From contig CANFSY010000012.1 of the NCBI GenBank assembly GCA_947449875.1, forward strand, positions 1-37,531: a DNA stretch of 37,531 nt. Direction: 5' to 3'. Both the position numbers and the translations under genes were made by a program. A model generated the notes under the pieces. The model had not been told where the DNA came from. It saw nothing but the letters and a program-made list of their open reading frames with translations, and searched no databases. This stretch comes from Paracoccaceae bacterium. GTDB lineage: Bacteria > Pseudomonadota > Alphaproteobacteria > Rhodobacterales > Rhodobacteraceae. Positions 3,855 to 37,531 of the stretch are shown here, in pieces (position 1 is the first letter of the stretch; each line of letters opens with the position of its first letter).

Positions 3855-4315
3855 AGAGGGTTCTGCTCGACACCAACCTTTTGCTACTTTACTTGGTCGG
3901 CATATGCATCCCGACCAAACTTGACTGGAAACGCCTTCAAGCTTTTGATCTGGAAGACTTTAATGTCCTAAGTCGAAAGATCGTAAACCACGCGCATGTG
4001 ACCCTGCCGAACGTATTGACCGAGGCGTCAAACCATCTTGGGTCAGGCTATCAAGAAGCGTTCGGTGGGGCGAGTAGACTTCTTGGGTGGTACATGAAAA
4101 CCACCCAAGAGGTTTATGTGCCGTCGACGGCCGTTGTGACAGGGCGCGACTATGCGAAATTGGGGCTGACGGACGGCGCGATCATCCAAAGATGTCTTAT
4201 GGATAAGGTTGACGTCTGGACCGTTGATCATGACCTGTATGGGACACTTACCAGCAAGGGCGTGGTTGTGCATAATCTGCGGCACGAAAAGACCCCAAAG
4301 ACGCGACGCAAATGA
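3851..4315 (+). CDS. PIN-domain protein, putative ribonuclease
   Basis: The 154-residue protein has the features of a PIN nuclease: an N-terminal 'VLLDTNLLLLYLVG' strand with Asp7, a mid-protein Glu58 in 'LPNVLTEASN', Asp108 in 'LGLTDGAII', and Asp126/Asp128 in 'VWTVDHDLYG'. This is the usual acidic quartet that holds divalent metal. The start is TTG at 3851, overlapping the upstream stop by four bases; its own stop overlaps the ATG of the S4 gene (ATGA). PIN proteins are commonly toxins of VapBC-type modules that cleave RNA, but the partner here does not look like a classical VapB, and this protein is slightly longer than a typical VapC. It may instead be a stand-alone RNase. Base composition is AT-richer than the flanks. 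Confidence 0.75.
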   Translation: MKRVLLDTNLLLLYLVGICIPTKLDWKRLQAFDLEDFNVLSRKIVNHAHVTLPNVLTEASNHLGSGYQEAFGGASRLLGWYMKTTQEVYVPSTAVVTGRDYAKLGLTDGAIIQRCLMDKVDVWTVDHDLYGTLTSKGVVVHNLRHEKTPKTRRK

Positions 4316-4623
4316 CACTAGCGGCAAACCGTCCCAAACTGCGGCTGGACAAATGGCTATGGCAGGCGCGCTTCTTCAAGGGGCGCGACCTGGCCGCCGA
4401 TGTGGTGCTGGGGGGGCATTTGCGGCTGAACGGCCAAAGATGCACAAAGCCCGGGCACGGCGTGGCGGTTGGCGATGTGTTGACCTTTGCCCAAGGTAAC
4501 CAGATCAGGGTCGTGCGGGTCTTGGCCCTTGGCCAGCGGCGCGGCCCTGCGCCCGAAGCTCAAGCGCTTTTTGCCGACCTTGAAGCGCCAAGTGGGGCCA
4601 GCGGTGCATCCTCCCTTGAATGA
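4312..4623 (+). CDS. S4-domain RNA-binding protein, Hsp15/HslR-like
   Basis: The 103-residue protein begins with an S4 RNA-binding domain: 'LRLDKWLWQARFFKGRDLA' (about residues 9-28) and the second part 'GHLRLNGQRCTKPGHGVAVGDVLTF' (about 38-62). This is the arrangement of Hsp15 (HslR), which binds stalled 50S subunits carrying nascent chain in enterobacteria. The ATG overlaps the stop of the PIN gene by four bases, so the start is well set, though the upstream pair may be a recent insertion into an older helicase-S4-fdxA order. In alphaproteobacteria an S4 protein of this kind often lies next to a SUV3-like helicase gene and fdxA, which fits here. Confidence 0.88.
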   Translation: MTLAANRPKLRLDKWLWQARFFKGRDLAADVVLGGHLRLNGQRCTKPGHGVAVGDVLTFAQGNQIRVVRVLALGQRRGPAPEAQALFADLEAPSGASGASSLE

Positions 4624-4677
4624 TGCGGGCACCTCGTTTAGTCAGGCTTTGCTGCGATTTAAGGATGGAATGCCCTC

Positions 4678-5016
4678 ATGACCTATGTGGTGATCGACAA
4701 CTGCATTGCCTGCAAATACACCGACTGCGTGGAAGTCTGTCCGGTGGATTGCTTTTACGAGGGCGAGAATATGCTCGTCATCCATCCTGACGAATGCATT
4801 GACTGCGGCGTGTGCGAACCTGAATGCCCTGCCGATGCCATCCGCCCCGACACAGAGCCGGATCTGGACCATTGGGTCACCTTTAACCGCAAATATGCCG
4901 AACTTTGGCCGGTGATCGTGACCAAGAAAGACCCGTTGCCCGACGCCACTGAACGGGACGGGGAAAAGGACAAGCTTAAGACCTATTTTTCCGAAGCCGC
5001 AGGCTTGGGCGGCTGA
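4678..5016 (+). CDS. fdxA: Ferredoxin FdxA, 7Fe-8S type
   Basis: This is a 112-residue ferredoxin with two clusters. Cys9, Cys17 and Cys21, spaced C-x7-C-x3-CP, would ligate a 3Fe-4S cluster. The C-x2-C-x2-C-x3-CP motif at Cys40, 43, 46 and 50 would ligate a 4Fe-4S cluster, with Cys25 completing it. The length and the C-terminal extension '[15 protein letters not shown]' match the seven-iron FdxA family of alphaproteobacteria, cytosolic electron carriers. The ATG at 4678 is preceded by AAGGATGGAA, a weak ribosome site. It is followed by carD, as in many Rhodobacteraceae genomes. The electron partner is not visible here. Confidence 0.95.
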
Positions 5017-5106
5017 TTCGCGCCGAAAAATCGGTGATATTCGGTCAGATTGACGAAAACTTTAACACGATTGCCCCAAAGGCCGCATTTCCACCGCATG
5101 CGGTTC

Positions 5107-5135
5107 TTGGAAATTCGCAAATTTTGTGTTATAGA
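5107..5135 (+). promoter_or_regulatory. Candidate sigma70-type promoter ahead of the carD leader
   Basis: TTGGAA at 5107-5112 and TATAGA at 5130-5135 are separated by 17 bases, a good match to a housekeeping promoter. It would start RNA near 5142, giving a leader of about 147 bases before carD. Seen by eye only. Confidence 0.5.
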
Positions 5136-5141
5136 TTGGTT

Positions 5142-5253
5142 ACAATCAATGAAGGAAGCCTGCAGCCCTGTCGCAGCCTTTGGCTGAGGGACGGTTTTTC
5201 CGACGAGCAAGAGAGTGTATGACAGCGGGACTTCGGTTCCGCTTCTCTCTTTT
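5142..5253 (+). ncRNA. Structured leader or small RNA upstream of carD
   Basis: The stretch between the candidate promoter and carD has no convincing gene but is rich in hairpins. CAGCC-ttt-GGCTG is extended by CCCT/AGGG around 5165-5190. CGG-ttttt-CCG lies near 5192-5202. A strong stem AGCGGGAC-ttcg-GTTCCGCT spans 5224-5243, capped by a UUCG tetraloop, and can be lengthened by GAGAG (5211-5215) pairing with CTCTC (5245-5249), followed by TTTT. The last hairpin resembles an intrinsic terminator, so this could be a separate small RNA or an attenuated leader of carD. I cannot assign it to a known RNA family. Confidence 0.4.
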
Positions 5254-5288
5254 CGTCGGGTCAGGCTATGCCGCATAGGAATGACACC

Positions 5289-5798
5289 ATGACCAAAAGC
5301 AAGAAGCCAGACTTTCACCCCAACGACTTTGTGGTCTACCCCTCGCACGGGGTGGGCAAGATCGTGTCGATCGAAGAGCAAGACATCGCCGGCATGCGGC
5401 TTGAGCTGTTTGTTATCTCGTTTGAAAAAGACAAAATGACCCTGCGCGTGCCCACGCACAAAGCGACCGACATCGGGATGCGCTCGCTGTCGTCGCCGGA
5501 TCTGGTGTCAAAAGCGTTGGATACGCTAAAGGGCAAAGCCCGTGTCAAACGCGCCATGTGGTCGCGCCGCGCGCAGGAATATGAACAAAAGATCAACTCG
5601 GGCGATCTGATGGCCATCGCCGAAGTGGTGCGTGACCTGCACCGCACCGATGACCAGCGCGAGCAATCTTATTCCGAACGCCAGCTGTACGAAGCAGCCC
5701 TTGAACGTCTGACCCGCGAAGTGGCGGCGGTGGCGGGGGTTGATGAAGCGGGCGCGCAAAAGAAAGTCGGCGACGTGCTGGTCGGGCGCGCCGCCTGA
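5289..5798 (+). CDS. carD: CarD family transcriptional regulator
   Basis: The 169-residue protein has the CarD/CdnL pattern. An N-terminal RNA-polymerase-interacting domain begins '[18 protein letters not shown]' (residues 9-26, 'VYPSHGVG' is the family hallmark). It is followed by a helical C-terminal domain with '[18 protein letters not shown]' and '[15 protein letters not shown]'. CarD binds the beta subunit of RNA polymerase and stabilises open complexes, notably at rRNA promoters. I chose ATG 5289 over the in-frame ATG at 5268 because AGGA at 5277-5280 is at the right distance. An intrinsic terminator follows. The structured leader upstream suggests regulated expression. Confidence 0.93.
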
Positions 5799-10260: not shown

Positions 10261-11541
10261 TTACGCCGTCGCAGCCGTCAAAGCCTGATCCAGATCGGCA
10301 ATGATGTCGCGTACATCTTCAATCCCGATCGACAGGCGCACCACGTTCGACGAAGCTCCCGCCGCCGCGCGTTGCTCGTCGCTGAGCTGGCGGTGCGTGG
10401 TTGAGGCCGAGTGGATCACCAAGCTGCGCGTGTCGCCCAGATTGGCGACATGGCTGAACAGTTTCAGATGGTCGACCAGCTTGACGCAAGCGTCATACCC
10501 GCCCTTGACGGCAAAGGTGAACAAAGCCCCCGCCCCACCCGGCACGATCATCTTGGCCAGATTGTGGTAGGGCGACGATTTCAGGCCCGGATATGTCACA
10601 AAATCTACGCGCGGATCGGACTCTAGCCATTCGGCCACGGCTTGGGCGTTTTGCACATGACGCTCCATCCGCAGGGGAAGGGTTTCGATGCCCATCAGCG
10701 TGTAATGCGCCCCTTGCGGGTTCATCGTCATGCCCAGATCGCGCAGACCCACGGCGATAGAGTGGAAGGTAAAGGCCATGGCCCCCAAAGCGGCATGGAA
10801 ATTCAGGCCGTGATAGGCCGGTTCGGGCGCGGCGAGCGAGGGGAACTTGCCCGAGGCCGACCAGTCAAACTTGCCGCTGTCCACAACCACACCGCCTGTG
10901 ACCGTGCCATTGCCGGTCAGGTATTTGGTGGCCGAATGCACGACCAAAGTCGCGCCGTGTTCGATGGGGCGGCACAGGAACGGCGTGGCGGTGGTGTTGT
11001 CTACAATCAGCGGCAGGCCGTGGTGATTGGCCACGCGGGCTACGGCGTCAAGGTCTGACACAGCGCCGCCGGGGTTGCAGATGGTTTCGCAGAACAAGGC
11101 GCGGGTGTTGTCGTCGATGGCCGCAGCGATGGCTTTGGGATCGTCAAAATTCACCAGCTTGGCCGACCAGCCGAATTTGCGGATGGTGTTGTTGAACTGC
11201 TGGATCGTGCCGCCGTAAAGCTTGGTCGAGGCGACCACATTCGTGCCCGGCTGCATCAGCGGAAACAGCGCCATGATCTGGGCTGCGTGCCCCGAAGAAC
11301 AGCACACCGCCCCCGCCCCCCCTTCTAACGCCGCCACGCGGTTGGCCAAGGCGGCCACGGTCGGGTTGGTCAGGCGCGAGTAGATATAGCCGACCTCTTG
11401 CAGGTTGAACAATTTGGCCGCGTGATCGGCATCGCGAAACACATAGGCCGTGGTTTGATAAATCGGCACCTGCCGCGCGCCGGTGGCGGGATCAGGCTCT
11501 GCGCCGGCGTGGATGGCGAGGGTGTTGAAGCCAAGGGTCAT
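10261..11541 (-). CDS. metY: O-acetylhomoserine sulfhydrylase (aminocarboxypropyltransferase)
   Basis: A PLP enzyme of the Cys/Met metabolism family; it makes homocysteine from O-acetylhomoserine and sulfide in the cytosol. The 426-residue chain starts '[18 protein letters not shown]', typical for MetY, and shows '[11 protein letters not shown]', 'YSRLTNPT', 'CSSGHAAQ' and the PLP lysine in '[18 protein letters not shown]'. Its length and the insertion after the PLP lysine suit MetY better than MetB or MetZ. I chose ATG 11541 because GGGAGG lies just upstream; the longer open frame to 11664 adds an unlikely leader that runs into the next gene. An Lrp/AsnC regulator lies 85 bases upstream on the same strand. 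Confidence 0.88.
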
Positions 11542-27368: not shown

Positions 27369-27405
27369 GGGGTAGGTGCGGCTCACGTCTGGGTGATGTG
27401 GGCGG

Positions 27406-27439
27406 GATGGCCGGAAATAAGACTCGAATGGCGGAAATT
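27406..27439 (+). promoter_or_regulatory. 20-base-spaced direct repeat upstream of mgdA
   Basis: GATGGCCGGAAATA and GAATGGCGGAAATT place GGAAAT at 27413 and 27433, exactly 20 bases apart, in the 128-base gap before mgdA. A tandem binding site for one of the local regulators is plausible, as with the similar arrangement before tdm. Confidence 0.35.
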
Positions 27440-27496
27440 GCGCTTTGCAGCCGGGCTGCCCGCGCTAACTTCGGCCCAAGCAAACGGAGATCAAGC

Positions 27497-28747
27497 ATGC
27501 GCTATTCCGGGTTTCGGATCCTCAAAGAGGCGCTTACGGGGCACAAGGGCTGGGGCCACGCGTGGCGCGACCCTGAACCGCAGGCGTCTTATGATTACAT
27601 CATCATAGGCGGCGGCGGGCACGGCTTGGCCACGGCCTATTATCTGGCCAAAGAGTTCAAACAGGCCCGCATTGCGGTGCTGGAAAAGGGCTATCTGGGC
27701 GGCGGCAATGTCGGGCGCAACACCACGATCATCCGGTCGAACTATCTGCTCGACGGGAACGAGCCGTTTTACGAATTCTCGCTGAAACTCTGGGAAGGGT
27801 TAGAGCAAGATTTCAACTACAACGCCATGGTCAGCCAGCGCGGGATTATCAACCTGATTCACACCGATGCGGCGCGTGATGCGGCCACTCGGCGCGGCAA
27901 TGCGATGATCTTGAACGGGGCGGATGCCGAACTGCTCAACCGCGATCAGGTGCGGGCGATGTATCCGTTCTTGAACTTTGACAATGCGCGCTTTCCCATC
28001 AAAGGCGCATTGATGCAGCGGCGCGGTGGCACAGTGCGCCATGATGCCGTGGCTTGGGGCTATGCGCGCGGGGCCGATGGGCTGGGTGTCGATCTGATCC
28101 AGAACTGCGAAGTCACGGGGATGCGGATCGAGAATGGCAAGATCTTGGGGGTCGAAACCTCTCGCGGGTTTATCGGGGCCAAGAAGGTCGGCGTTGCGGT
28201 GGCGGGGTCGTCTTCTAAGGTGATGGCCCATGCCGGAATGCGCCTGCCGATGGAAAGCCATGTGTTGCAGGCCTTTGTCTCCGAAGGGTTAAAGCCGCTG
28301 ATTGACGGCGTTATGACCTTTGGCGCGGGGCATTTTTATGTCAGCCAGTCGGACAAGGGCGGTTTGGTCTTTGGCGGCGACATCGACGGCTACAATTCCT
28401 ACGCACAGCGCGGCAACCTGCCCGTCGTGGAGGACGTGATCGAAGGGGGCATGGCCCTGATGCCCATGATCGGCCGCGCCCGTCTGCTGCGCACATGGGG
28501 CGGGATCATGGATATGTCGATGGACGGATCGCCCATCATCGACAAAACCCATATCGACGGGCTCTATTTCAACGGCGGGTGGTGCTATGGCGGCTTTAAA
28601 GCCACGCCCGCCAGCGGGTGGTGCTTTGCCCATCTGCTGGCCAAAGACGAACCGCATGTGACGGCCAAGGCCTATCGCTTCGATCGCTTCCTGAAAGGGT
28701 TGATGATCGACGAAAAAGGCCAAGGCGCGCAACCGAACCTGCACTAG
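27497..28747 (+). CDS. mgdA: N-methylglutamate dehydrogenase subunit A (sarcosine-oxidase beta-like)
   Basis: This 416-residue FAD protein of the DAO/SoxB family has the dinucleotide site 'YDYIIIGGGGHGLATAYYLA' (about 32-51), 'GGNVGRNTTIIRSNYL', and 'RGGTVRHDAVAWGYARGAD', where His182 matches the position that carries covalent FMN in heterotetrameric sarcosine oxidase. The order beta-delta-alpha-gamma is shared by soxBDAG and mgdABCD; the context of tdm and mgsA favours N-methylglutamate dehydrogenase, which oxidises N-methylglutamate to glutamate and methylene-THF. ATG 27497 has GGAG upstream; the frame to 27398 runs into the promoter repeat. A true sarcosine oxidase remains possible. Confidence 0.75.
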   Translation: MRYSGFRILKEALTGHKGWGHAWRDPEPQASYDYIIIGGGGHGLATAYYLAKEFKQARIAVLEKGYLGGGNVGRNTTIIRSNYLLDGNEPFYEFSLKLWEGLEQDFNYNAMVSQRGIINLIHTDAARDAATRRGNAMILNGADAELLNRDQVRAMYPFLNFDNARFPIKGALMQRRGGTVRHDAVAWGYARGADGLGVDLIQNCEVTGMRIENGKILGVETSRGFIGAKKVGVAVAGSSSKVMAHAGMRLPMESHVLQAFVSEGLKPLIDGVMTFGAGHFYVSQSDKGGLVFGGDIDGYNSYAQRGNLPVVEDVIEGGMALMPMIGRARLLRTWGGIMDMSMDGSPIIDKTHIDGLYFNGGWCYGGFKATPASGWCFAHLLAKDEPHVTAKAYRFDRFLKGLMIDEKGQGAQPNLH

Positions 28748-28756
28748 GAACCTGCC

Positions 28757-29041
28757 ATGATCATTCATCATCCAATCCTTGGGCCGCGCGATGCGCAGGA
28801 ATTTGTCTATCTGGGCGACGCCAGCCTGATCGGGCGGCCTGACGGGCTGACAGCCAGCATCGAAGACTTTCACAATTACACCTACCTGCGCGACAACCCC
28901 GCAGGCGCGCACCGCGAACTGTGGTATCACGAACAGGGCGACCGCTCTTGGCTGGTTGTGACGCGCAACACGCTAACGCATGAGATTTTGCAGGTAGAAT
29001 TGGCCCGTGATGTGGCCCGGGCCGAGGGGCGTTCGAAATGA
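28757..29041 (+). CDS. mgdB: N-methylglutamate dehydrogenase subunit B (SoxD-like), zinc site lost
   Basis: This 94-residue delta-type subunit aligns with SoxD in 'LGPRDAQEFVYLGDAS' and 'NPAGAHRELWYHEQGDRSWL', the latter followed by 'RNTLTHEI'. In sarcosine oxidase the delta subunit binds zinc through two Cys in a CPxCG motif and a later His and Cys. Here the CPxCG region reads HPILG (His5, Leu8) and the late pair is His58 with Asp62, so three of four ligands differ. It therefore probably does not bind zinc in the usual way. It lies nine bases after mgdA with AGGA as ribosome site, and overlaps mgdC by four bases (ATGA). Confidence 0.78.
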   Translation: MIIHHPILGPRDAQEFVYLGDASLIGRPDGLTASIEDFHNYTYLRDNPAGAHRELWYHEQGDRSWLVVTRNTLTHEILQVELARDVARAEGRSK

Positions 29042-31983
29042 GCCAATCCAACCGCATATCCGGCGGCCTGATCGACCGCAGCCGAACCCTGCGCTTCCAT
29101 TTTGACGGGCTGCCCTATCTGGGCCATCCGGGCGACACGCTGGCCTCGGCCCTTTTGGCCAACGGCGTGCGCCTGATGGGGCGTAGCTTTAAATATCACC
29201 GCCCGCGCGGGCCGATCTCGGCGGGGTCCGAAGAGCCTAACGCCTTGGTTGAACTGCGCAGCGGGGCGCGGCAAGAACCCAACACCCGCGCCACCGTGGC
29301 CGAGTTGTTTGACGGGCTGACCGCCCAAAGCCAGACCCGCTGGCCCAGCCTGAAGTTTGACGCGCTGGCGATCAATGACCGCTTCAACAGCTTTCTGACG
29401 GCGGGGTTTTATTACAAAACCTTCATGTGGCCGGCGTCTTTTTGGGAAAAGGTCTACGAACCGATCATCCGCCGTGCGGCGGGTCTTGGCAGCCTGACCA
29501 AGCTGGAAGACCCCGATAGCTATGACAAAGGCTTCTTGCACTGCGATATTCTGATCATCGGGGCTGGTCCTGCGGGCTTGTCGGCGGCGCTGACGGCGGG
29601 GCGGTCAGGGGCGCGTGTGATCTTGGCGGATGAAGACTTCCGCATGGGCGGGCGCTTGAACGCCGAAACGTTTGAACTGGGCGATCAGGCGGGCTTTGTT
29701 TGGGCCGATGCGGCTGTGGCCGAACTTTCAAGCCTGCCCAATGTGCGTTTGATGACGCGCACCACTGTGGTGGGGGCCTTTGACCACGGCATTTACGGCG
29801 CGGTCGAGCGGGTGTCAGATCACCTGATCGAACCCGCCCCCGGCAAGCCGCGCCAGACATTCTGGCGGATCTACAGCCAACGCGCGATCTTGACGGGCGG
29901 GGCCACCGAACGCCCGATTGCGTTTGAAAACAACGACCGCCCGGGCATCATGCTCGCCGGATCCCTGCGCGCCTATGCCAACCGCTGGGGCGTGGCCGTG
30001 GGCGAGCGGACGGCGATTTTCACCAACAACGACGACGGCCTGCGCACCGCGCGCGATCTGCAAGCCAAGGGCGTTGACGTGGTGGCCGTGATTGACAGCC
30101 GCGACGGTGGCGAGCTTCTTCCCGGCATCCGCCACCTGCGCGGGGCCGAGGTGATTGACAGCGCGGGCCGTTTGGGCCTGTCGTCCATCACGGTGCGCCA
30201 CGCCAATGGCAAAACCGAGGTGATCAAGGCCACCGCCCTTGGCGTTTCGGGCGGGTGGAACCCCAATGTCAACATCACCTCGCACCACCGCTCGCGCCCG
30301 ATCTGGCGCGACGATATCGCGGCCTTCGTGCCCGGTTCGGGCGAGATTGCCAATCTGTCCGTCGCAGGGGCTGCGGCTGGCACGCTGTCAACCCACGGCG
30401 CTTTGGTGACGGGGGATGAGGTCGCACGCACGGCGCTGGCAAGTCTGGGGCTGACGGCTACAGCCGCCAACCTGCCCAAGGCGGAAGATGCACCCGTGCG
30501 CATCACGCCCATGTGGTACGTAAAGGGGTCAAACCGCGCTTGGATTGACCCGCAAAACGATGTGACCGTCAAAGACATCAAACTGGCGCATCAGGAAAAC
30601 TTCACCTCGGTCGAACATCTTAAACGCTATACCACCCTTGGCATGGCGACCGATCAGGGCAAAACCAGCAACGTGCTGGGGCTGGCCGTGATGGCGGGGC
30701 TGACGGGCAAATCCATTCCCGACACCGGAACCACGGTCTATCGCCCGCCCTATACGCCCGTGGCCTTGGGGGCCTTGGGTGGGCGGGGCAGGGGGCAAGA
30801 GTTCAAGCCGTTCCGCCTGACGCCCTCGCACAAATGGGCGCAAGAACAAGGCGCTGTCTTTGTCGAAGTGGGCTACTGGCTGCGCACACAGTGGCTGCCC
30901 AAAGCCGGTGAGACGACATGGCGGCAGTCTGTCGACCGCGAGGTTTTGGCCACGCGCAAATCGGTCGGCATTTGCGATGTGACCACTTTGGGCAAGATCG
31001 ACATTCAAGGCACCGATGCCGGGGCATTCTTGGATAAGGTCTATGCCAACACCTTTAGCACACTGGCCGTTGGCAAATGCCGCTATGGCCTCATGCTGCG
31101 CGAGGATGGTATGGTGTTTGACGATGGCACCACGGCGCGGATGGGGCAGAATGAATATGTGACGACCACCACCACCGCCAATGCGGTGACGGTCTTCCGC
31201 CATCTGGAATTCTGCCGTCAGGTGCTGTGGCCAGATATGGATGTGCAGCTGATCTCGACCACGGAAGCTTGGGCGCAATTCTCGGTGGCAGGCCCCAATG
31301 CGCGCAAATTGCTGCAAAAGGTGGTTGATCAAGACATCTCGGATGCGGCGTTCCCCTATATGGGGGCGGGCAATATCACTGTGGGCGGCCTGCGGGCGCG
31401 GTTGTTCCGCATCAGCTTCTCGGGCGAATTGGCCTATGAAATCGCCGTGCCCACCCGCTACGGCGATGCGATGATCCGCAAGCTGATGGAAGCGGGGGCA
31501 GAGTTTGATGCCGTGGTCTACGGCACCGAAGCCTTGGGCGTGATGCGCATTGAAAAGGGCCATGTCGCGGGCAACGAGCTGAACGGCACGTCAACCGCGC
31601 TGAACATGGGGCTTGGCAAAATGGTCAGCCGCAAGAAAGATTCCATCGGCATGGTCTTGTCCCAGCGCGAGGGGATGACCCGCGACGATGGCTTGCGGCT
31701 GGTGGGGGTCAAACCCGTCAACCCTGCGGCAGAGCTGAAAGCGGGCAGCCATTTCCTGAAAACCGGTGTGGCAGCGAAAGCGGAAAATGACGACGGCTGG
31801 CTGACATCCTTGGTCTATTCGCCGCATCTGGGCCATTACATCGCACTAGGCTACCTGAAAGACGGGTCCAACCGCATTGGCGAAAAGATGCGCGCCGTCA
31901 ACCTTTTGGCCGGGACTGACACCGAAATCGAAATCGTCAGCCCGCATTTCATCGACCCGGAAGGGGAACGTCTTCGTGCCTGA
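29038..31983 (+). CDS. mgdC: N-methylglutamate dehydrogenase subunit C (sarcosine-oxidase alpha-like)
   Basis: The 981-residue alpha-type subunit has three parts. The N-terminal 2Fe-2S-like fold has no cysteine cluster ('LRFHFDGLPYLGHPGDTLASALLANG' in part, residues 17 on). A pyridine-nucleotide/FAD domain starts with 'CDILIIGAGPAGLSAALTAG' near residue 172. A C-terminal GcvT-like folate domain (about 600-981) has 'LGKIDIQGTDAGAFLDKVY', 'FSFSGELAYEIAVP'-type sequence and 'GTEALGVMRIEKGH'. In this family the alpha subunit binds NAD and THF and receives the methylene group. The length fits SoxA/MgdC. It overlaps mgdB at its start and mgdD at its end. Confidence 0.78.
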   Translation: MSQSNRISGGLIDRSRTLRFHFDGLPYLGHPGDTLASALLANGVRLMGRSFKYHRPRGPISAGSEEPNALVELRSGARQEPNTRATVAELFDGLTAQSQTRWPSLKFDALAINDRFNSFLTAGFYYKTFMWPASFWEKVYEPIIRRAAGLGSLTKLEDPDSYDKGFLHCDILIIGAGPAGLSAALTAGRSGARVILADEDFRMGGRLNAETFELGDQAGFVWADAAVAELSSLPNVRLMTRTTVVGAFDHGIYGAVERVSDHLIEPAPGKPRQTFWRIYSQRAILTGGATERPIAFENNDRPGIMLAGSLRAYANRWGVAVGERTAIFTNNDDGLRTARDLQAKGVDVVAVIDSRDGGELLPGIRHLRGAEVIDSAGRLGLSSITVRHANGKTEVIKATALGVSGGWNPNVNITSHHRSRPIWRDDIAAFVPGSGEIANLSVAGAAAGTLSTHGALVTGDEVARTALASLGLTATAANLPKAEDAPVRITPMWYVKGSNRAWIDPQNDVTVKDIKLAHQENFTSVEHLKRYTTLGMATDQGKTSNVLGLAVMAGLTGKSIPDTGTTVYRPPYTPVALGALGGRGRGQEFKPFRLTPSHKWAQEQGAVFVEVGYWLRTQWLPKAGETTWRQSVDREVLATRKSVGICDVTTLGKIDIQGTDAGAFLDKVYANTFSTLAVGKCRYGLMLREDGMVFDDGTTARMGQNEYVTTTTTANAVTVFRHLEFCRQVLWPDMDVQLISTTEAWAQFSVAGPNARKLLQKVVDQDISDAAFPYMGAGNITVGGLRARLFRISFSGELAYEIAVPTRYGDAMIRKLMEAGAEFDAVVYGTEALGVMRIEKGHVAGNELNGTSTALNMGLGKMVSRKKDSIGMVLSQREGMTRDDGLRLVGVKPVNPAAELKAGSHFLKTGVAAKAENDDGWLTSLVYSPHLGHYIALGYLKDGSNRIGEKMRAVNLLAGTDTEIEIVSPHFIDPEGERLRA

Positions 31984-32542
31984 TTTCATCCTAACCCCCA
32001 TCACCGCCCTTGGCCACGCCACACCCGAGGTTGACATCATCGGCCCGTGGACAATCACCGAACGCGCCGATGTGGCGCTGGCCTCGCTCGCCGTGCGGCG
32101 CGGGCGCTTGGGCGATTTGCAAGCCGCGGCGGCGGGCGCGGGTGTGCCCTTGCCTGCCGCGGGGGCTGCGGCCCAAGGCATGCCCTACAGCTCCTTTTGG
32201 ATGACGCCCGAGATGTGGATGGTCGAAGCGCCCTTTGCCAGCCACGAAGACATCCGCGCCCATCTGCTGCCCGCCTTTGGCGATGCGGCCTCGATCACCG
32301 AACAGACCGACGCTTGGGTGCGCTTTGATCTGGCGGGCGCAGACCTGCCCCGCCTGTTTGAACGCCTGTGCAACTTTGATCTGGCCAAGGCCCCCGCAGG
32401 GGCGGCCACCCGCACAGTGATGGAGCATTTGGGCTGCTATCTGATCAAACGCACCGACTCGCTGGTGACCGTCTATGGCCCGCGCTCGTCAGCGCAAAGC
32501 CTGCACCATGCCTTGGTCGTGGCGGCGCAATCGGTTTTGTGA
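31976..32542 (+). CDS. mgdD: N-methylglutamate dehydrogenase subunit D (sarcosine-oxidase gamma-like)
   Basis: The 188-residue protein is the gamma-type subunit ('VDIIGPWTITERADVALASL', 'YSSFWMTPEMWMVEAPF', 'ITEQTDAWVRFDLAGADL', 'MEHLGCYLIKRTDSLVTVYG', last part). I chose the GTG at 31976, which overlaps the mgdC stop by eight bases and has AAGGGGAA upstream. The longer frame starting at 31877 would lie inside mgdC with no ribosome site. Its role is structural within the heterotetramer. This is the last gene of the mgdABCD unit; a regulator follows after a promoter with a large palindrome. Confidence 0.78.
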   Translation: MPDFILTPITALGHATPEVDIIGPWTITERADVALASLAVRRGRLGDLQAAAAGAGVPLPAAGAAAQGMPYSSFWMTPEMWMVEAPFASHEDIRAHLLPAFGDAASITEQTDAWVRFDLAGADLPRLFERLCNFDLAKAPAGAATRTVMEHLGCYLIKRTDSLVTVYGPRSSAQSLHHALVVAAQSVL

Positions 32543-32558
32543 CGGTTTTTCTTGTCCC

Positions 32559-32598
32559 TTGCGATCTTTTTTCCCTATAGTGAAAAAAGCGATCGCAA
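32559..32598. promoter_or_regulatory. Large palindrome over the XRE-cupin gene promoter region
   Basis: A 22-base core, 32567-32588, reads TTTTTTCCCTA/TAGTGAAAAAA with ten of eleven positions pairing. It is flanked by outer arms TTGCGATC (32559-32566) and GATCGCAA (32591-32598), the right one offset by GC. It lies 11 bases ahead of the regulator ATG and just after mgdD, and is the likely autoregulatory operator. Confidence 0.6.
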
Positions 32599-32609
32599 AG
32601 GACGCACCC

Positions 32610-33266
32610 ATGACCGATGACGCCCAAGCCTTTGTGCCGCGCGGCAAGCCCGCGCTAAGCCAAGACCCCCACAAGGTGCGCGACCTTTCCGAGCGCAACC
32701 TTGAGGCCGCGATTGGCCGCGAGGTGCGCGCCTTTCGCCGCCAACAGGGGCTGACGGTCGCCGATCTGGCGCAGGTGACGGGGCTGTCGATCGGGATGCT
32801 GTCGAAGATTGAAAACGGCATCACCTCGCCGTCGCTGACGACGTTGCAGGTGCTGAGCCATGCCTTTTCCGTACCCGTCACCGCGTTTTTCAAATCTTAC
32901 GAAGAACGCCGCGAGGTGCAGCATGTGCAAGCGGGCGACCATATCGAGGTGGAACGGCGCGGCACACGCTCGGGTCACCAATACAATTTGCTGGGCCATA
33001 TCGGGTCGAATAATTCGGGCGTGGTGGTGGAACCCTATCTGATCACCCTATCCACCGAGGCCGATATTTTCCCGACCTTTCAGCACGAAGGGTTGGAAAT
33101 GCTCTATATGCTGGAAGGTGAAGTAACCTACCGCCACGGCGACAAGTTGTTCCATCTCAAACCCGGTGACAGCCTGTTCTTTGACGCTGACGCCCGCCAT
33201 GGGCCAGAGGTGTTGAACAAACTGCCCGCCCGCTACCTGTCGGTCATCGCTTACCCGCAGGGGTGA
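32610..33266 (+). CDS. XRE-type HTH regulator with cupin sensor domain
   Basis: The 218-residue protein has an N-terminal Cro/C1-type helix-turn-helix at about residues 31-86 ('VRAFRRQQGLTVADLAQVTG', 'GMLSKIENGITSPSLTTLQ') and a C-terminal cupin ('FQHEGLEMLYMLEGEVTYRH', 'LKPGDSLFFDADARHGPEVL'). PuuR-like regulators of this type control amine and amino-acid catabolism. ATG 32610 is preceded by AAAGGA; the longer frame from 32475 lies in mgdD. It directly follows mgdABCD and stands near the permease operon and mgsA, so it is a likely local regulator. Its stop is one base from the stop of the converging gene. Confidence 0.9.
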   Translation: MTDDAQAFVPRGKPALSQDPHKVRDLSERNLEAAIGREVRAFRRQQGLTVADLAQVTGLSIGMLSKIENGITSPSLTTLQVLSHAFSVPVTAFFKSYEERREVQHVQAGDHIEVERRGTRSGHQYNLLGHIGSNNSGVVVEPYLITLSTEADIFPTFQHEGLEMLYMLEGEVTYRHGDKLFHLKPGDSLFFDADARHGPEVLNKLPARYLSVIAYPQG

Positions 33267-33267
33267 C

Positions 33268-33531
33268 TTACACCTTGGCCCAGATCGTCCAGCGCAGGCG
33301 GGCGGTGCGGTAGGCGTCGGGAATTGACAGGGCATAGACAAAAATCCCCCCCGCCAAATGCCCGATCAGCGATGCCGTGGGCGGGGCGGTGATAAAGGTG
33401 ATCGTGCCCAACAGGGCTGTGAAAAACAAAAACATCAACCCGCGCATCGGTTGGCGGTTGAGCACTTGGCCGCAGCCGGGCAGCAGCACAGATACGGCCA
33501 GAACCAGATAGGGATGGGGCGGTTTTTTCAT
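33268..33531 (-). CDS. Small membrane protein, 87 residues
   Basis: This 87-residue protein has two to three hydrophobic segments: residues 8-20 ('YLVLAVSVLLPGCGQVLNRQ', shown with flank), 31-47 ('GLMFLFFTALLGTITFI') and about 53-69. The pattern 'LVLAVSVLLPGCGQVLNRQPMRGLMF' (in part) resembles the 'P-G-G-Q-x-x-N' motif of small TM2-like or DUF5683-type proteins of unknown function. It overlaps its upstream neighbour by four bases (start ATG within ATGA), so they are co-translated. It converges on the XRE gene with a single base between stops. Confidence 0.75.
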   Translation of the reverse strand: MKKPPHPYLVLAVSVLLPGCGQVLNRQPMRGLMFLFFTALLGTITFITAPPTASLIGHLAGGIFVYALSIPDAYRTARLRWTIWAKV

Positions 33532-34199
33532 GGGTGGGCCTTAAGGGCTGTGTGAATGTCGGCCAGCGTGTCCAGCAGGCTTTGCAGGCGGGGCGCGGGC
33601 AGGGGGGTCAGGCCAAGTTCTGCATCGCGAAAGATCAGATAATTGGCGCGGTCGCCCTCTTCCGCCAGCACGACAAGGCGGATGCCTTTGGGCGACAGGA
33701 CGGCTTCTTTCATCTTTGGGTCGCGAAATAAGGGGGCAAGCTGGGCCATGACAGCCGCCGAAGGCAAAGCGGCGGGGTCAGAGCAGCGCAGGGTGCAATC
33801 GGGCGCAAAGCCGTGGGGCAGGGCTACAGCATAGGGCATCTGCGCATGGGTGGAAAAGCTTTCCTGACCATTGGCGCGGGCCATGATACGCGCCTCAGCG
33901 GTCAAGGGCTGGGGTTCGGTGACGGTAACCATCACCCAAAGCGCGGGAAGTTTGCGAAAGCTTAAGGTGTCGGGCAGGGCCTGAAGGTCAAAGCGCAGGC
34001 CTTGATAGGTTCCTGCCATGCGGGCAAAGCCTGTGGCTTGAATTTGGCTTATGGTGCCAGACAAAAGCTGCGTTGCGGCGGCGAAGTAAGTGGCGCGCGC
34101 CCCAGCCCGACCACGGGCCGCGCGCAAAATCTGAACCAAGGTTTGCGCCAGCCACAGCCCCAATCCAAGCGCAATAAGCAGCGTGATCAGCTTGGACAT
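33528..34199 (-). CDS. Uncharacterised membrane-anchored protein, 223 residues
   Basis: An N-terminal membrane helix at about residues 3-24 ('LITLLIALGLGLWLAQTLVQ') anchors a soluble domain with beta-strand character ('YQGLRFDLQALPDTLSFRKL', 'LWVMVTVTEPQPLTAEARI', 'GIRLVVLAEEGDRANYLIF'). I do not recognise the family. The ATG at 34199 has GGAAAGG in front; the frame extends further upstream but through the terminator of the permease operon, so a longer protein is unlikely. Its stop overlaps the next start (ATGA). It may need its own promoter, since the preceding operon ends at a strong terminator. Confidence 0.75.
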   Translation of the reverse strand: MSKLITLLIALGLGLWLAQTLVQILRAARGRAGARATYFAAATQLLSGTISQIQATGFARMAGTYQGLRFDLQALPDTLSFRKLPALWVMVTVTEPQPLTAEARIMARANGQESFSTHAQMPYAVALPHGFAPDCTLRCSDPAALPSAAVMAQLAPLFRDPKMKEAVLSPKGIRLVVLAEEGDRANYLIFRDAELGLTPLPAPRLQSLLDTLADIHTALKAHP

Positions 34200-34214
34200 C
34201 TTGGGCCTTTCCAT

Positions 34215-34246
34215 AAAAAACCGGCCCGCTTTTGCAAGCGGGCCGG
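34215..34246 (-). terminator. Intrinsic terminator of the permease operon
   Basis: Read on the reverse strand: a perfect 11-base-pair stem CCGGCCCGCTT/AAGCGGGCCGG with loop GCAA, followed by six T (34220 to 34215). It begins nine bases past the permease stop. Confidence 0.9.
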
Positions 34247-34254
34247 GGATGCGA

Positions 34255-35694
34255 TTAGTAGCCTTTGGGCCGCGGCCACGGCATGGTGAACTGCGCCGCG
34301 CGGCTGACGAAACGGTAGCGCCAGAAGTGGAACCACAGCGAGGCGACGATGTAAAAGGCAATCATCGCCACAAGCTGCGTGCCGTAGCCCAGAAACACCG
34401 CAAAGAAGGTGATGGCGCACAGCGACAACAGCACGATCGAGGGCAGCGGGTGGAACGGATGTTCATACCCGCGCTTGATCGAGCCCATGGGCCATTTCTT
34501 GCGGAACAAGATCATGTTGAGCGGCATGAACGTATATTCCAACAGTCCTGACAAGATCGAGAAGGTCACCACCTGATCCAGCGGCGCTTTCAGCGCAAAG
34601 GCCAGCGCAATCGGCACCAAGAAGATGATGGACCGATAGGGCGTGCGGAACTTGGGGTGCACCGCGCCAAACCAACCCGGCAGATATTTGTCACGGCCCA
34701 AGGCAAACCAAGCCCGCGAAGCGTCATTGATACAGCCGTTGGCCGAAGCCAGCGTTGCAAACAGCGTGCCCACACCCAAAAGCCAAACCAAGGGCTGCGA
34801 GTTGGTCAGCAAAGCGGCGGTGAAGAGCGGTGCCACCGACCCGTTCAAGCCGTCGCCCAGATATTCCCACGGGATCAGGCCGGTGCAGACATACCATGTC
34901 AGCGTGGCGGCGATCAGCAGGGTCATAATCCCTGCCAGCGTGCCAAAGGGCAGCGCGCGGGCGGGCGAGCGGACCTCTTCTGCCGCTTGGGTCGTGCCTT
35001 CGATGCCCAGATAGTACCACAGGCCAAAGTGCATGGCGGCCAAAACGCCGATCCAGCCATAGGGCAGGGCGGCCGAGCCGGCAAACAGATCGGCGTGGTG
35101 CATCATTGACGGCGCAATGATCCCCGAGGTGGACAAGAACAAGATGATGATGGCCGCAAAGGCGATGGCGGTGATGACCAAGTTAAAGGTCAGTGTCGCC
35201 AGAACCCCGCGGTAGTTCAGCCATGCCAGAAACATGATCGACAAGATGATGAAAGGCCGCTGGTCCAGCGTGCCCGCATAGCCTGTCAGCCGCGCCACTT
35301 CTGAAATCAGATACCCCGCCGTGATGGCGTTTGCGGCCTCTAGCATGGTATAGGCAAAGACCAGATACAGGCCCACGTTAAAGGCCATCAGCGGCCCCAC
35401 GATGTGCTTGGCTTGGGTATATTGCCCACCTGCCGCAGCCACCGTCGAGGTGACTTCTGAATCGATCATCGCCACGCAGGTGTACAAAATGCCCGCAAAC
35501 CAGCAGGCCACCAGTGCAGCGTAAGCCCCGCCTTTGCCCACGGCAAAGTTCCAGCCCATATATTCGCCCACAAGCACAATGCCCACGCCCAAAGCCCACA
35601 CATGGGCCGGCCCCAGCACGCGGAGCAGGCCAACATTGGTGCCATGCGGCCCCATGCCGTCACGCTCTTTCGAGGTGATGTCAAACTCAGCCAT
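34255..35694 (-). CDS. APC permease, ethanolamine/amino-acid type
   Basis: The 479-residue inner-membrane protein has twelve or so hydrophobic helices and the APC look of ethanolamine permeases: 'WALGVGIVLVGEYMGWNFAV', 'MIDSEVTSTVAAAGGQYTQA', 'YYLGIEGTTQAAEEVRSPAR', 'GTLFATLASANGCINDASRA' and 'WFALGRDKYLPGWF'. It is the last gene of a four-gene leftward operon with three small membrane proteins and overlaps the 58-residue gene by eight bases. The start is ATG 35694. Location between mgdABCD and mgsA suggests uptake of methylamine, gamma-glutamylmethylamide, N-methylglutamate or a similar amine; none is proven. A perfect terminator follows. Confidence 0.88.
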   Translation of the reverse strand: MAEFDITSKERDGMGPHGTNVGLLRVLGPAHVWALGVGIVLVGEYMGWNFAVGKGGAYAALVACWFAGILYTCVAMIDSEVTSTVAAAGGQYTQAKHIVGPLMAFNVGLYLVFAYTMLEAANAITAGYLISEVARLTGYAGTLDQRPFIILSIMFLAWLNYRGVLATLTFNLVITAIAFAAIIILFLSTSGIIAPSMMHHADLFAGSAALPYGWIGVLAAMHFGLWYYLGIEGTTQAAEEVRSPARALPFGTLAGIMTLLIAATLTWYVCTGLIPWEYLGDGLNGSVAPLFTAALLTNSQPLVWLLGVGTLFATLASANGCINDASRAWFALGRDKYLPGWFGAVHPKFRTPYRSIIFLVPIALAFALKAPLDQVVTFSILSGLLEYTFMPLNMILFRKKWPMGSIKRGYEHPFHPLPSIVLLSLCAITFFAVFLGYGTQLVAMIAFYIVASLWFHFWRYRFVSRAAQFTMPWPRPKGY

Positions 35695-35863
35695 GATGCC
35701 CCCCTTGCGCTTCGGTCATCGCTTCCAATTCGCCTTCGCGCGACGAGGTGAGAACCTCTTCCGAATAGGTCGAATCCGTTTTCAGCCAGTCGATCACCAT
35801 ATAGGCCGCAAAGGCCGCCGACAGCGCCCAAGCGGCATATTCTGCATAATTCCAGATGCTCAT
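35687..35863 (-). CDS. Small single-helix membrane protein, 58 residues
   Basis: The reverse strand encodes 58 residues, 'MSIWNYAEYAAWALSAAFAA' followed by 'YMVIDWLKTDSTYSEEVLTS' and an acidic, His-ending tail ('EAQGGHHG'). One membrane helix spans about residues 5-25, and the C-terminus is charged. The start lies seven bases after the preceding gene's stop and its stop overlaps the permease start by eight bases, so translation is coupled to both. Codon use is like the neighbours. I know no family. Its position suggests a small accessory subunit of the permease. Confidence 0.72.
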   Translation of the reverse strand: MSIWNYAEYAAWALSAAFAAYMVIDWLKTDSTYSEEVLTSSREGELEAMTEAQGGHHG

Positions 35864-35870
35864 CGCGCCC

Positions 35871-36263
35871 TCACTTGTCGAATTTTTCCGCGATGACTTC
35901 GCGGTATTCGGTTTCAGAGAATTTCAACATCAGCACGTAATAGGCCACGATGATCACCACCATCACCAGCAAAGCGGTGACAGAAAAGCTATAGTCGTAG
36001 CGGGCGTTGATGATGTCAGAAATGGCGGCGGGGTCGGTGAAGCCCGGTTTAGTCAGGCCAAGGGCATTGTATTGTGCGATTTGTGTCGCGTTCTGGCCCA
36101 TGGCTTCCCATGTCTGGCCAGCCCCTTCGGGCACGGTTTTGACCCCTCCGGCCAGACCCATAAACATCGGGATGTAAAGCGCGCCGAAGGTCAGCGCCAT
36201 CAGCACGATCACGTCGAACAACTGGCTGAGCTTGCCCTGTTTGGGCGGTACATAATGGGCCAT
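35871..36263 (-). CDS. Two-helix membrane protein of 130 residues in the permease operon
   Basis: The 130-residue protein has helices at about 16-42 ('LFDVIVLMALTFGALYIPMF') and 93-116 ('FSVTALLVMVVIIVAYYVLM'), with a polar loop of about 50 residues between them ('GAGQTWEAMGQNATQIAQYN'), probably facing the periplasm. Its GGAGG ribosome site overlaps the stop region of the upstream gene, only two bases away, so the genes are tightly coupled. I recognise no family. With the 95- and 58-residue proteins it forms a set of accessory membrane proteins ahead of the APC permease. Confidence 0.78.
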   Translation of the reverse strand: MAHYVPPKQGKLSQLFDVIVLMALTFGALYIPMFMGLAGGVKTVPEGAGQTWEAMGQNATQIAQYNALGLTKPGFTDPAAISDIINARYDYSFSVTALLVMVVIIVAYYVLMLKFSETEYREVIAEKFDK

Positions 36264-36265
36264 GA

Positions 36266-36553
36266 TTACCTCCGCGTCGCGCGGGCTTCATCAAGAAACT
36301 TGATGTCCAGCCCATACATGAAATCGCGGTCTTCGCGGTAATGGCGCAGCATGGCCAAGATGGCGGCCGTGTTGAACACCAAGATCGTCGCCCCCGCGAT
36401 CAGCAGCAGCACGCGCGCTGTGCCGTTGGGCGCAAGGTTCCAAGTGGCGATGGCCACAAAGATCACCGAGAACCACAGACCCAGCACAAAAGCCCAAGCG
36501 ACACGAATGTCACTTTTGTGCATGGCCTGAATCCTTTGACTAAGATCAGACAT
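36266..36553 (-). CDS. Two-helix membrane protein of 95 residues, first gene of the permease operon
   Basis: The 95-residue protein has two membrane helices, about 18-41 ('VAWAFVLGLWFSVIFVAIAT') and 46-69 ('VLLLIAGATILVFNTAAILA'), then a charged C-terminal tail ('HYREDRDFMYGLDIKFLDEA'). Both ends are hydrophilic, which suggests an in-out-in hairpin. In outline it resembles small two-helix partners of other transporters (DUF485 or DUF4212 proteins), but I do not claim homology. ATG 36553 has GGGAGGG in front. The divergent neighbour is mgsA, with 256 bases of shared regulatory region. Confidence 0.78.
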   Translation of the reverse strand: MSDLSQRIQAMHKSDIRVAWAFVLGLWFSVIFVAIATWNLAPNGTARVLLLIAGATILVFNTAAILAMLRHYREDRDFMYGLDIKFLDEARATRR

Positions 36554-36628
36554 TTTTCCCTCCCTTTGGCCTTTCGTCGGACGGGCTGGCCGTGGCGCCC
36601 GTTTCCTTTCCCGACATGTTTTTTTCTT

Positions 36629-36638
36629 TCAGGAAACT
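36629..36638. promoter_or_regulatory. TCAGGAAACT site in the permease-mgsA divergent region
   Basis: TCAGGAAACT is the reverse complement of the AGTTTCCTGA at 36742-36751. It lies where the -10 element of a leftward promoter would be (TTGACA at 36659-36654 on the reverse strand with 17-base spacing). Likely part of a shared operator pair. Confidence 0.4.
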
Positions 36639-36653
36639 CTGCCAAGGCGCTTG

Positions 36654-36659
36654 TGTCAA
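36654..36659 (-). promoter_or_regulatory. Candidate -35 element of the permease operon
   Basis: A consensus TTGACA on the reverse strand, 101 bases upstream of the first start codon of the operon. No consensus -10 is visible at the right distance; TTTCCT lies there, within the operator-like site, which suggests an activated promoter. Confidence 0.35.
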
Positions 36660-36741
36660 GAAAAGTCTTGATTGGCTGAAAAATAGCCGCTTTCGGGCTG
36701 TGGTTGGTGCAAAATCGCCCGCCTTGCATCTTGGTCAAAAA

Positions 36742-36751
36742 AGTTTCCTGA
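36742..36751. promoter_or_regulatory. AGTTTCCTGA site upstream of mgsA promoter
   Basis: The second copy, inverted relative to 36629-36638, ends four bases before the candidate mgsA -35 box, a typical place for an activator. The two copies are about 113 bases apart, allowing one regulator to serve both divergent units. Confidence 0.4.
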
Positions 36752-36754
36752 CAG

Positions 36755-36783
36755 TTGATATGGCGAAATTTCAATGCTAGCGT
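36755..36783 (+). promoter_or_regulatory. Candidate promoter of mgsA
   Basis: TTGATA (36755-36760) and TAGCGT (36778-36783) with 17 bases between, giving RNA start near 36790 and a leader of about 20 bases. The weak -10 resembles that of tmm. Confidence 0.45.
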
Positions 36784-36809
36784 GATCCAAACTTGCAAGG
36801 AGACTCACC

Positions 36810-37531
36810 ATGTGTGGCATCGTTGGGCTGTTCCTAAAGGACGCAAGCCTTGAGCCGAAGTTGGGCGCAATGCTGGCGGATATGCTGGTCACGATGACAG
36901 ATCGTGGGCCAGATTCGGCAGGCATCGCCATTTATTCCGGCGCAGGCGAAGGCCGCGCCAAGCTGACCGTGCAATCCGCCCATCCCGGCCGTGATTTCGC
37001 CAATCTGGACGCCGATCTGAAAGACGCCATCGGCACGCCCGTGCTGATGCTGATCAAAGACACCCATGCCGTGCTGGAAGTGCCCGTGGCCCAGTTGGAA
37101 GCAGCACGCTCGGCCCTGACCCACCTGCGCCCCACCGTAAAGGTGATGAGCGCTGGCGAAGGCATCGAGATTTTCAAGGAAGTCGGCCTGCCCAAGGATG
37201 TGGCGGCACGTTTTGGAATCTCCAAAATGGGCGGCACGCATGGCATCGGCCACACCCGCATGGCAACCGAATCCGCCGTGACCACCATGGGCGCGCACCC
37301 GTTTTCAACCGGCAATGACCAGTGCTTGGTCCACAACGGGTCGCTGTCGAACCACAACGGCGTGCGGCGCGAGCTAAAGCGCCTTGGCATGACGTTTGAG
37401 ACAGAAAACGACACCGAAGTGGGTGCTGCCTTTATCAGCCACAAGCTGCAAAGCGGCGACACGTTGGGCCATGCGCTGGAAGCGACCCTGACCGATCTGG
37501 ATGGGTTCTTTACCTTTGTCGTCGGCACCAA
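36810..37531 (+). CDS. mgsA: N-methylglutamate synthase subunit A, class II amidotransferase-like, 3' end outside
   Basis: The frame opens at ATG 36810 (GGAG nine bases before) and runs off the window after 240 codons. It begins 'MCGIVGLFLKDASLEPKLGA' with Cys2 as the expected catalytic residue of Ntn amidotransferases. Family motifs follow: 'MTDRGPDSAGIAIYSG', 'GTHGIGHTRMATESAV' and 'CLVHNGSLSNHNGVRREL', then 'ENDTEVGAAFI'. In N-methylglutamate synthase this subunit releases methylamine from gamma-glutamylmethylamide; MgsB and MgsC complete the enzyme and should follow beyond the edge, with gmaS. An alternative is the GlxB amidotransferase of a glutamate-synthase-like complex, but the setting favours mgsA. 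Confidence 0.85.
   Translation, partial: MCGIVGLFLKDASLEPKLGAMLADMLVTMTDRGPDSAGIAIYSGAGEGRAKLTVQSAHPGRDFANLDADLKDAIGTPVLMLIKDTHAVLEVPVAQLEAARSALTHLRPTVKVMSAGEGIEIFKEVGLPKDVAARFGISKMGGTHGIGHTRMATESAVTTMGAHPFSTGNDQCLVHNGSLSNHNGVRRELKRLGMTFETENDTEVGAAFISHKLQSGDTLGHALEATLTDLDGFFTFVVGT

Follow-up and report, generated by a model that had tools for sequence, protein, structure and literature searches.

Analysis of a 37,531-nucleotide stretch of Paracoccaceae bacterium DNA (assembly GCA_947449875.1, contig CANFSY010000012.1; this whole stretch is called the window below) revealed a conserved cassette of six genes, A-B-C-P-D-E, in which the APC-family permease P is preceded by the small genes A, B and C and followed by D and E. 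The cassette probably encodes an importer of several parts for a small amine. We propose, with a probability of roughly 0.5, that it may encode a multi-subunit APC transporter for methylammonium, and we consider it likely, as a narrower claim, that A to C act with P. The proposal builds on the gene order, the finding that P and the small genes go together, their linkage to the N-methylglutamate (NMG) pathway, a hairpin between P and D, and the Amt gene that takes the cassette's slot in some cassette-negative genomes. The cassette and its signals are arranged as follows.

36266..36553, minus strand: gene A, 95 residues, two predicted transmembrane (TM) helices (open reading frame (ORF) call and hydropathy)
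35871..36263, minus strand: gene B, 130 residues, two predicted TM helices flanking a loop of ~58 residues
35687..35863, minus strand: gene C, 58 residues, weakly hydrophobic N-terminal stretch and acidic tail
34255..35694, minus strand: gene P, 479 residues, APC-family permease
34221..34246, minus strand: hairpin between P and D, 11-bp GC-rich stem followed by TTTTTT, conserved and terminator- or attenuator-like
33528..34199, minus strand: gene D, 223 residues, N-terminal TM helix and beta-rich domain
33268..33531, minus strand: gene E, 87 residues, small membrane protein
36554..36809, no strand: A/mgsA divergent promoter region; boxes conserved across an alignment of 52 sequences

A preliminary description of this DNA had presented A, B, C and P as a four-gene operon, and the positions and lengths of these genes, the gaps of 2 bases (A-B) and 7 bases (B-C) and the 8-base overlap of C and P were all confirmed. 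The A-B-C-P block is real, but the unit has six genes, with D and E, which overlap by four bases, following P; the cassette consists of two blocks, A-B-C-P being a block inside the six-gene unit. Conserved stretches include FNTAAIxAMLRHYREDRDFMYGLDIKFLD at the C terminus of A, and TWES and RFDYSF in the loop of B.

The order of these genes was conserved in nearly every locus recovered. A B-profile scan of one genome per species returned 193 relatives; the 80 closest to the window's B were retained and combined with four plasmid loci into a main set of 84. A-B-C-P occurred in this order and on one strand in 84/84 of these loci found via B, and the full order A-B-C-P-D-E in 83/84, with only L030 truncated where its contig stops; a contig end also leaves A incomplete in L024. 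Identity to the window by tblastn ranged from 42 to 98% for A, 51 to 93% for B and 52 to 100% for C. Because homologues precede P in the same order in all 84 loci, the small ORFs A, B and C are real genes. The small genes of the cassette carry hypothetical annotations in public plasmid records; on pSymB of Sinorhizobium meliloti Ak57 (L153, 7380-7950), B and C are unannotated yet present in order. Adjacent genes lie close together, with gaps of at most 30 bases for A-B in 82/83 loci, B-C in 84/84, C-P in 79/80 and D-E in 82/82, D and E overlapping in 64/82 and the P-D gap having a median of 58 bases (all starts script-chosen). The same six genes in the same order were found on plasmids of Paracoccus aminophilus, Aminobacter, Pseudohalocynthiibacter and Pararhizobium. 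An apparent frameshift divides P over two frames at 10594-11070 of locus L085 (Mesorhizobium loti UFLA 01-765).

Loci found via B show the association of B with the rest of the cassette, and the reverse test used P as the query. At a threshold of E<=1e-60, P was present in 14 of the 398 genomes of a phylum draw, the window's included. A, B and C accompanied it in 13/13 of the other genomes and D-E in 12/13, the thirteenth locus (L155) stopping at a contig end; all cassette genes were present in a Paraburkholderia locus (L152). The phylum-draw and B-found sets overlap, at least one phylum-draw genome (G610) being a B-found locus (L073), and G010 corresponds to L044. Among plasmids, P at the same threshold gave 22 records at 65-83% identity, and B also gave 22 records, with a genus tally identical to that of P and with all 20 listed B accessions among the P records. 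The next relatives of P among the plasmid matches listed were only 26-30% identical, mostly ethanolamine permeases. Because of these reverse tests and the identity gap below 65%, P can be regarded as an isolated clade, not seen without its small neighbours. The idea of dedicated small partners, which the preliminary description had raised and which a lack of conservation beside the permease would have undermined, is therefore strongly supported by synteny (84/84 and 13/13 loci): the partners were encoded wherever the carrier was found. Genomic support for a new APC complex is good, and in biochemical terms such a complex is a prediction.

The surroundings of the cassette point to the NMG pathway. 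In the window it is part of a methylated-amine cluster that comprises tmm, the permease for trimethylamine N-oxide (TMAO), dmm genes, tdm, mgdABCD, the XRE regulator and, at the contig end, mgsA; A-B-C-P is located between mgdABCD plus the XRE regulator (27398-33266) and mgsA (36810 onward). The relevant neighbours are as follows.

27398..32542, plus strand: mgdABCD, sarcosine-oxidase-like subunits, N-methylglutamate dehydrogenase
32475..33266, plus strand: XRE regulator, coordinates of the longest ORF, convergent with E
36810..37531, plus strand: mgsA, cut by the contig end
17186-18964: TMAO permease TmoP (NF053774), 592 residues, compared with 520 positions in the NCBIfam model

The cassette stayed intact in rearranged surroundings: it was divergent from mgsA in 52/84 loci, and elsewhere it preceded mgsABC-gmaS-mgd in the same direction, followed gmaS or adjoined dmm. 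In 34/84 loci an XRE regulator gene was located no more than 2 kb downstream of E.

Placement within the NMG pathway, proposed earlier from the window, was supported genome-wide by co-occurrence with mgsC. In a family draw of 394 genomes, B was present in 16 and mgsC orthologues in 124, a count that excludes 13 genomes with only a ~54% paralogue. Orthologues of mgsC were found in 14/16 cassette genomes versus 110/378 others in this draw (Fisher p 3.5e-6) and in 14/14 versus 30/384 in the phylum draw (p 5e-15), p values that serve as guides only, since the genomes are related, the sets overlap and independence is overstated. Thirty cassette loci had no mgs or gmaS gene in the stretch; 27 of these were in genomes, all of which carried mgsC elsewhere (27/27), and the remaining three were plasmid records, one with mgsC and two without. 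The NMG pathway does not require the cassette; the cassette appears to depend on the pathway. This relation persists through rearrangement, even in a genome of 1.9 Mb (G718, locus L168) with a full cassette and divergent NMG proteins that are only 32-68% identical to the queries.

Comparison with NMG loci lacking the cassette suggested what it may transport. In one genome of the window's own genus (L090) the cassette is absent from this position and the XRE gene is followed directly by mgsA. A tblastn search for Amt genes in 60 cassette-negative NMG loci and in 54 cassette loci with mgsA revealed a full-length Amt-family gene within ~530 bases of mgsA in 18/60 of the former (one more, in L125, was cut by the contig end) and beside mgsA in 0/54 of the latter (p 2.6e-6 using the 18); three of the Amt proteins were verified as members of PF00909. 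A figure legend of PMC5520151 names amtB within a cluster of methylated-amine genes. That an Amt-type gene occupies the position held elsewhere by the cassette suggests that the cargo is methylammonium, which the NMG pathway has to obtain from outside. The preliminary description had considered methylamine, gamma-glutamylmethylamide (GMA) and N-methylglutamate as cargo. Methylamine fits best, and the other two arise inside the cell via the NMG pathway. In one cassette-negative NMG locus (L127, ~5990) a TMAO-permease-like gene (49%) occupies the slot by mgsA.

Several observations weigh against a methylammonium transporter, or against reading too much into its linkage. Synteny is not proof of binding, and the pairwise distances of A, B, C, D and E, which correlate with those of P (0.74-0.88 over 75 loci) as would be expected of a unit inherited together, were computed without a control gene. 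Two cassette genomes, G021 and G329 (79% and 76% complete), lacked mgsC; two plasmid records (L008 and L009) lacked both mgsC and gmaS on the replicons seen, under the thresholds applied; and the Paraburkholderia record, in which mgsC was not sought, had only a 42% GmaS-like protein. With respect to Amt, 38/60 cassette-negative NMG loci had neither cassette nor Amt in the stretch, so that the NMG pathway genes are not invariably accompanied by a dedicated importer gene. Two more had only a distant Amt gene ~10 kb off, and one (L093, 6483-6722) only a 240-base Amt-like piece by mgsA, perhaps a remnant. Conversely, 3/84 cassette loci (L028, L032 and L069) carried Amt 6-8 kb from mgsA.

Properties of P itself are consistent with a small amine as cargo. 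P matched PF13520 (AA_permease_2) at 110.7 bits against a cut-off of 27, and its best curated match was the ethanolamine permease model TIGR00908, at 181.8 bits and thus below the cut-off of 381.75. The TM1 motif G[DE][YF]xGWN was found in P as in two compared ethanolamine permeases (Eat), which also have in common with P an EGxxxAAEExxxPAR-like stretch. Glu44 in TM1 of P was conserved in 30/30 aligned P proteins and in 15/15 loci of an arrangement comparison, and the two ethanolamine permeases have Asp at this position. The best PDB sequence match of P was GkApcT (E 7e-20), in which, according to excerpts of PMC5803215, Thr43 and Gly44 contact the substrate carboxylate and Lys191 in TM5 is proposed to function in H+ coupling. 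Glu44 of P falls at or next to GkApcT Thr43/Gly44, with a register uncertain by one residue, and its position in the carboxylate-contact region favours an amine cargo without a carboxylate. The equivalent of Lys191 was Ala178 in 30/30 aligned P proteins and the 15/15 loci, so that coupling in P probably differs from that of GkApcT.

The same multi-subunit transporter could instead carry another cargo, such as dimethylamine, trimethylamine, another small amine, GMA, N-methylglutamate or glutamate, and could perhaps be an exporter. Genes for other methylated amines (tmm, tdm, tmaoP or dmm) were present in the cassette stretch in 36/84 loci, and the Paraburkholderia cassette precedes dmmD and tmaoP. 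In three loci (L009 at 4073-5425, L081 and L086 at ~7985) the cassette adjoins a glutamine-synthetase-like protein other than GmaS, which could be a ligase for another amine; this also counts against the methylammonium reading. Against a different cargo, TMAO already has its own permease in the window, GMA and N-methylglutamate originate within the cell, Glu44 falls in the carboxylate-contact region, and mgsC was present in all 14 cassette genomes of the phylum draw. We consider a cargo other than methylammonium rather unlikely.

The small partners matched no described family. The profile search that had been suggested earlier was run, and A, B and C, like their Aminobacter homologues, matched no Pfam or NCBIfam model at cut-off. 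Hydropathy predicted two TM helices for A in 83/83 and for B in 84/84 family members, one weak helix above the TM threshold for C in 46/84 (the window's C falling below it), one helix for D in 71/82 and one to three for E. Structure predictions were made for single chains. The AlphaFold2 model of B was weak (pLDDT 67, pTM 0.35), and that of D was strong (pLDDT 94.3, pTM 0.89), with a confidently modelled beta domain that is probably cytoplasmic, because arginines follow the helix of D. The D model had no fold match at E<=0.001 in the PDB (best 0.048) or BFVD (best 0.038), and a PDB sequence-profile search of A, B and D gave no match under E 0.3. E showed a weak DUF5683 match over residues 5-29, at 22.3 bits below the cut-off of 26.7.

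A conserved hairpin separates the two blocks of the cassette. In the window (34246-34221) it has 11 pairs followed by six T, and folds 3.3 standard deviations better than shuffled sequences. A strict hairpin-plus-T rule was satisfied in 39/70 P-D gaps versus 0.2 expected from mononucleotide shuffles, and 67/68 gaps folded with a helix of at least 7 pairs. Among 34 aligned P-D sequences, 5/8 consensus pairs were changed on both sides; in the same alignment the covariation term was small (-0.12) and some sequences broke pairs. The hairpin may act as a leaky terminator or may stabilise the 3' end, and so give D-E a level different from that of A-B-C-P. An Rfam search over 33000-36900 at gathering scores gave no match, and a sigma-70 scan found no promoter. 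In the A/mgsA intergenic region, alignment of the window with 51 loci revealed conserved boxes, TCAACTG..AAGAAAC on the mgsA side and CTTGACAGA on the A side, which could serve as a lead to co-regulation of the cassette and the mgsA side. The window region also contains two exact copies of AGTTTCCTGA; as a general operator this repeat was rejected, its core GTTTCCTG occurring in both orientations in only 3/52 intergenic regions. The conserved boxes are the broader ones only, including a TTGACA-like hexamer.

P might instead work alone, with A, B and C as assembly or stability factors or regulators and with D-E serving the envelope or sensing. A small protein of one helix can have such a stabilising effect on an APC carrier: excerpts of PMC5803215 report that GkApcT without the small protein MgtS transports at a similar initial rate, with less transported in total, and D-E are set apart from P by the conserved hairpin. 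The presence of A-C in 13/13 P-found genomes and the equal plasmid records of B and P favour a constitutive role for the small proteins, and we regard a self-sufficient P as improbable. That the six genes are a neutral passenger block, together only through joint transfer with an NMG island, fits their copies on plasmids or chromids, their patchy presence (16/394 family genomes) and their absence from the NMG locus of L090, but is very improbable for a block that stays intact and ordered amid several neighbour rearrangements and down to 63-66% identity in P. A scan of viral contigs with B, and of phages with P at E<=1e-40, found no relatives, and there is therefore no sign of a phage origin in the scanned sets.

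For the methylammonium transporter, we infer a physical complex, a direction of transport, a cargo, a mode of coupling and expression levels. P would be the LeuT-fold APC carrier of the cassette; A, B and C would be its dedicated small membrane subunits, encoded close behind one another with P; and D and E, downstream of the conserved hairpin, would be accessory membrane proteins with an expression level of their own. The transporter would import methylammonium (CH3NH3+), which GmaS would then trap as GMA. The cassette would in this way fill a role that, in some other genomes with the NMG pathway, probably falls to an Amt-type channel encoded at the equivalent position.

Known systems resemble this arrangement in part. 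Eat (TIGR00908), also of the APC family and with a small primary amine as cargo by name, represents the nearest annotated plasmid relatives of P, at ~28-30% identity; unlike at P, no small membrane protein gene was annotated adjoining Eat in the two Eat loci opened. In GkApcT-MgtS (PDB 5oqt/6f34) a small membrane protein is packed on an APC carrier, but MgtS is an E. coli protein that bound GkApcT on heterologous expression according to the same excerpts (PMC5803215); the cassette partners are co-encoded with P. Heteromeric amino acid transporters (SLC3/SLC7) are mentioned in these excerpts too, and their light chains in the PDB gave matches to P with E values of about 3e-11 to 5e-7. In SLC3/SLC7 transporters an APC light chain pairs with one large partner glycoprotein, in contrast to the several small membrane proteins of the cassette. 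In SSS symporters, a different carrier family from P, a small membrane protein (DUF485, as in YjcH-ActP, or DUF4212) is encoded just before the LeuT-fold carrier. The parallel with these partners drawn in the preliminary description holds as analogy only: PF04341 (DUF485) and PF13937 (DUF4212) had no match in the window's genome at E<=0.001, and hhalign of A and B gave a probability of 0.2% against one DUF485 member and of 0.9% and 3.4% against one DUF4212 member, weak comparisons with single sequences. Amt (PF00909), which occupies the mgsA-adjacent slot in some cassette-negative loci, is a single gene of a different family from P, and TmoP, an APC protein of the same window cluster, belongs to a different subfamily and lacks the TM1 motif.

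In the excerpts returned by our literature searches, no assigned methylamine importer for NMG-pathway bacteria was found and the small cassette proteins were not named. Amino-acid permeases are listed among methylamine-responsive genes of Methyloversatilis in the abstract of PMC5023235. A bolder version of the proposal, which we consider quite doubtful, is an APC transporter that is obligately hetero-oligomeric, has as many as five dedicated membrane subunits and exchanges external methylammonium for the ammonium that the NMG pathway sets free. Its carboxylate site would contain Glu44, and it would lack the coupling lysine of GkApcT; such an exchanger would be a third solution to methylamine uptake besides diffusion and Amt. 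If the methylammonium transporter proposed here is correct, the NMG pathway would gain an importer outside the Amt family. To our knowledge, no other natural bacterial APC carrier has several co-encoded small subunits, and the cassette would then be the first known, providing a compact model of how small proteins may tune a LeuT-fold carrier.

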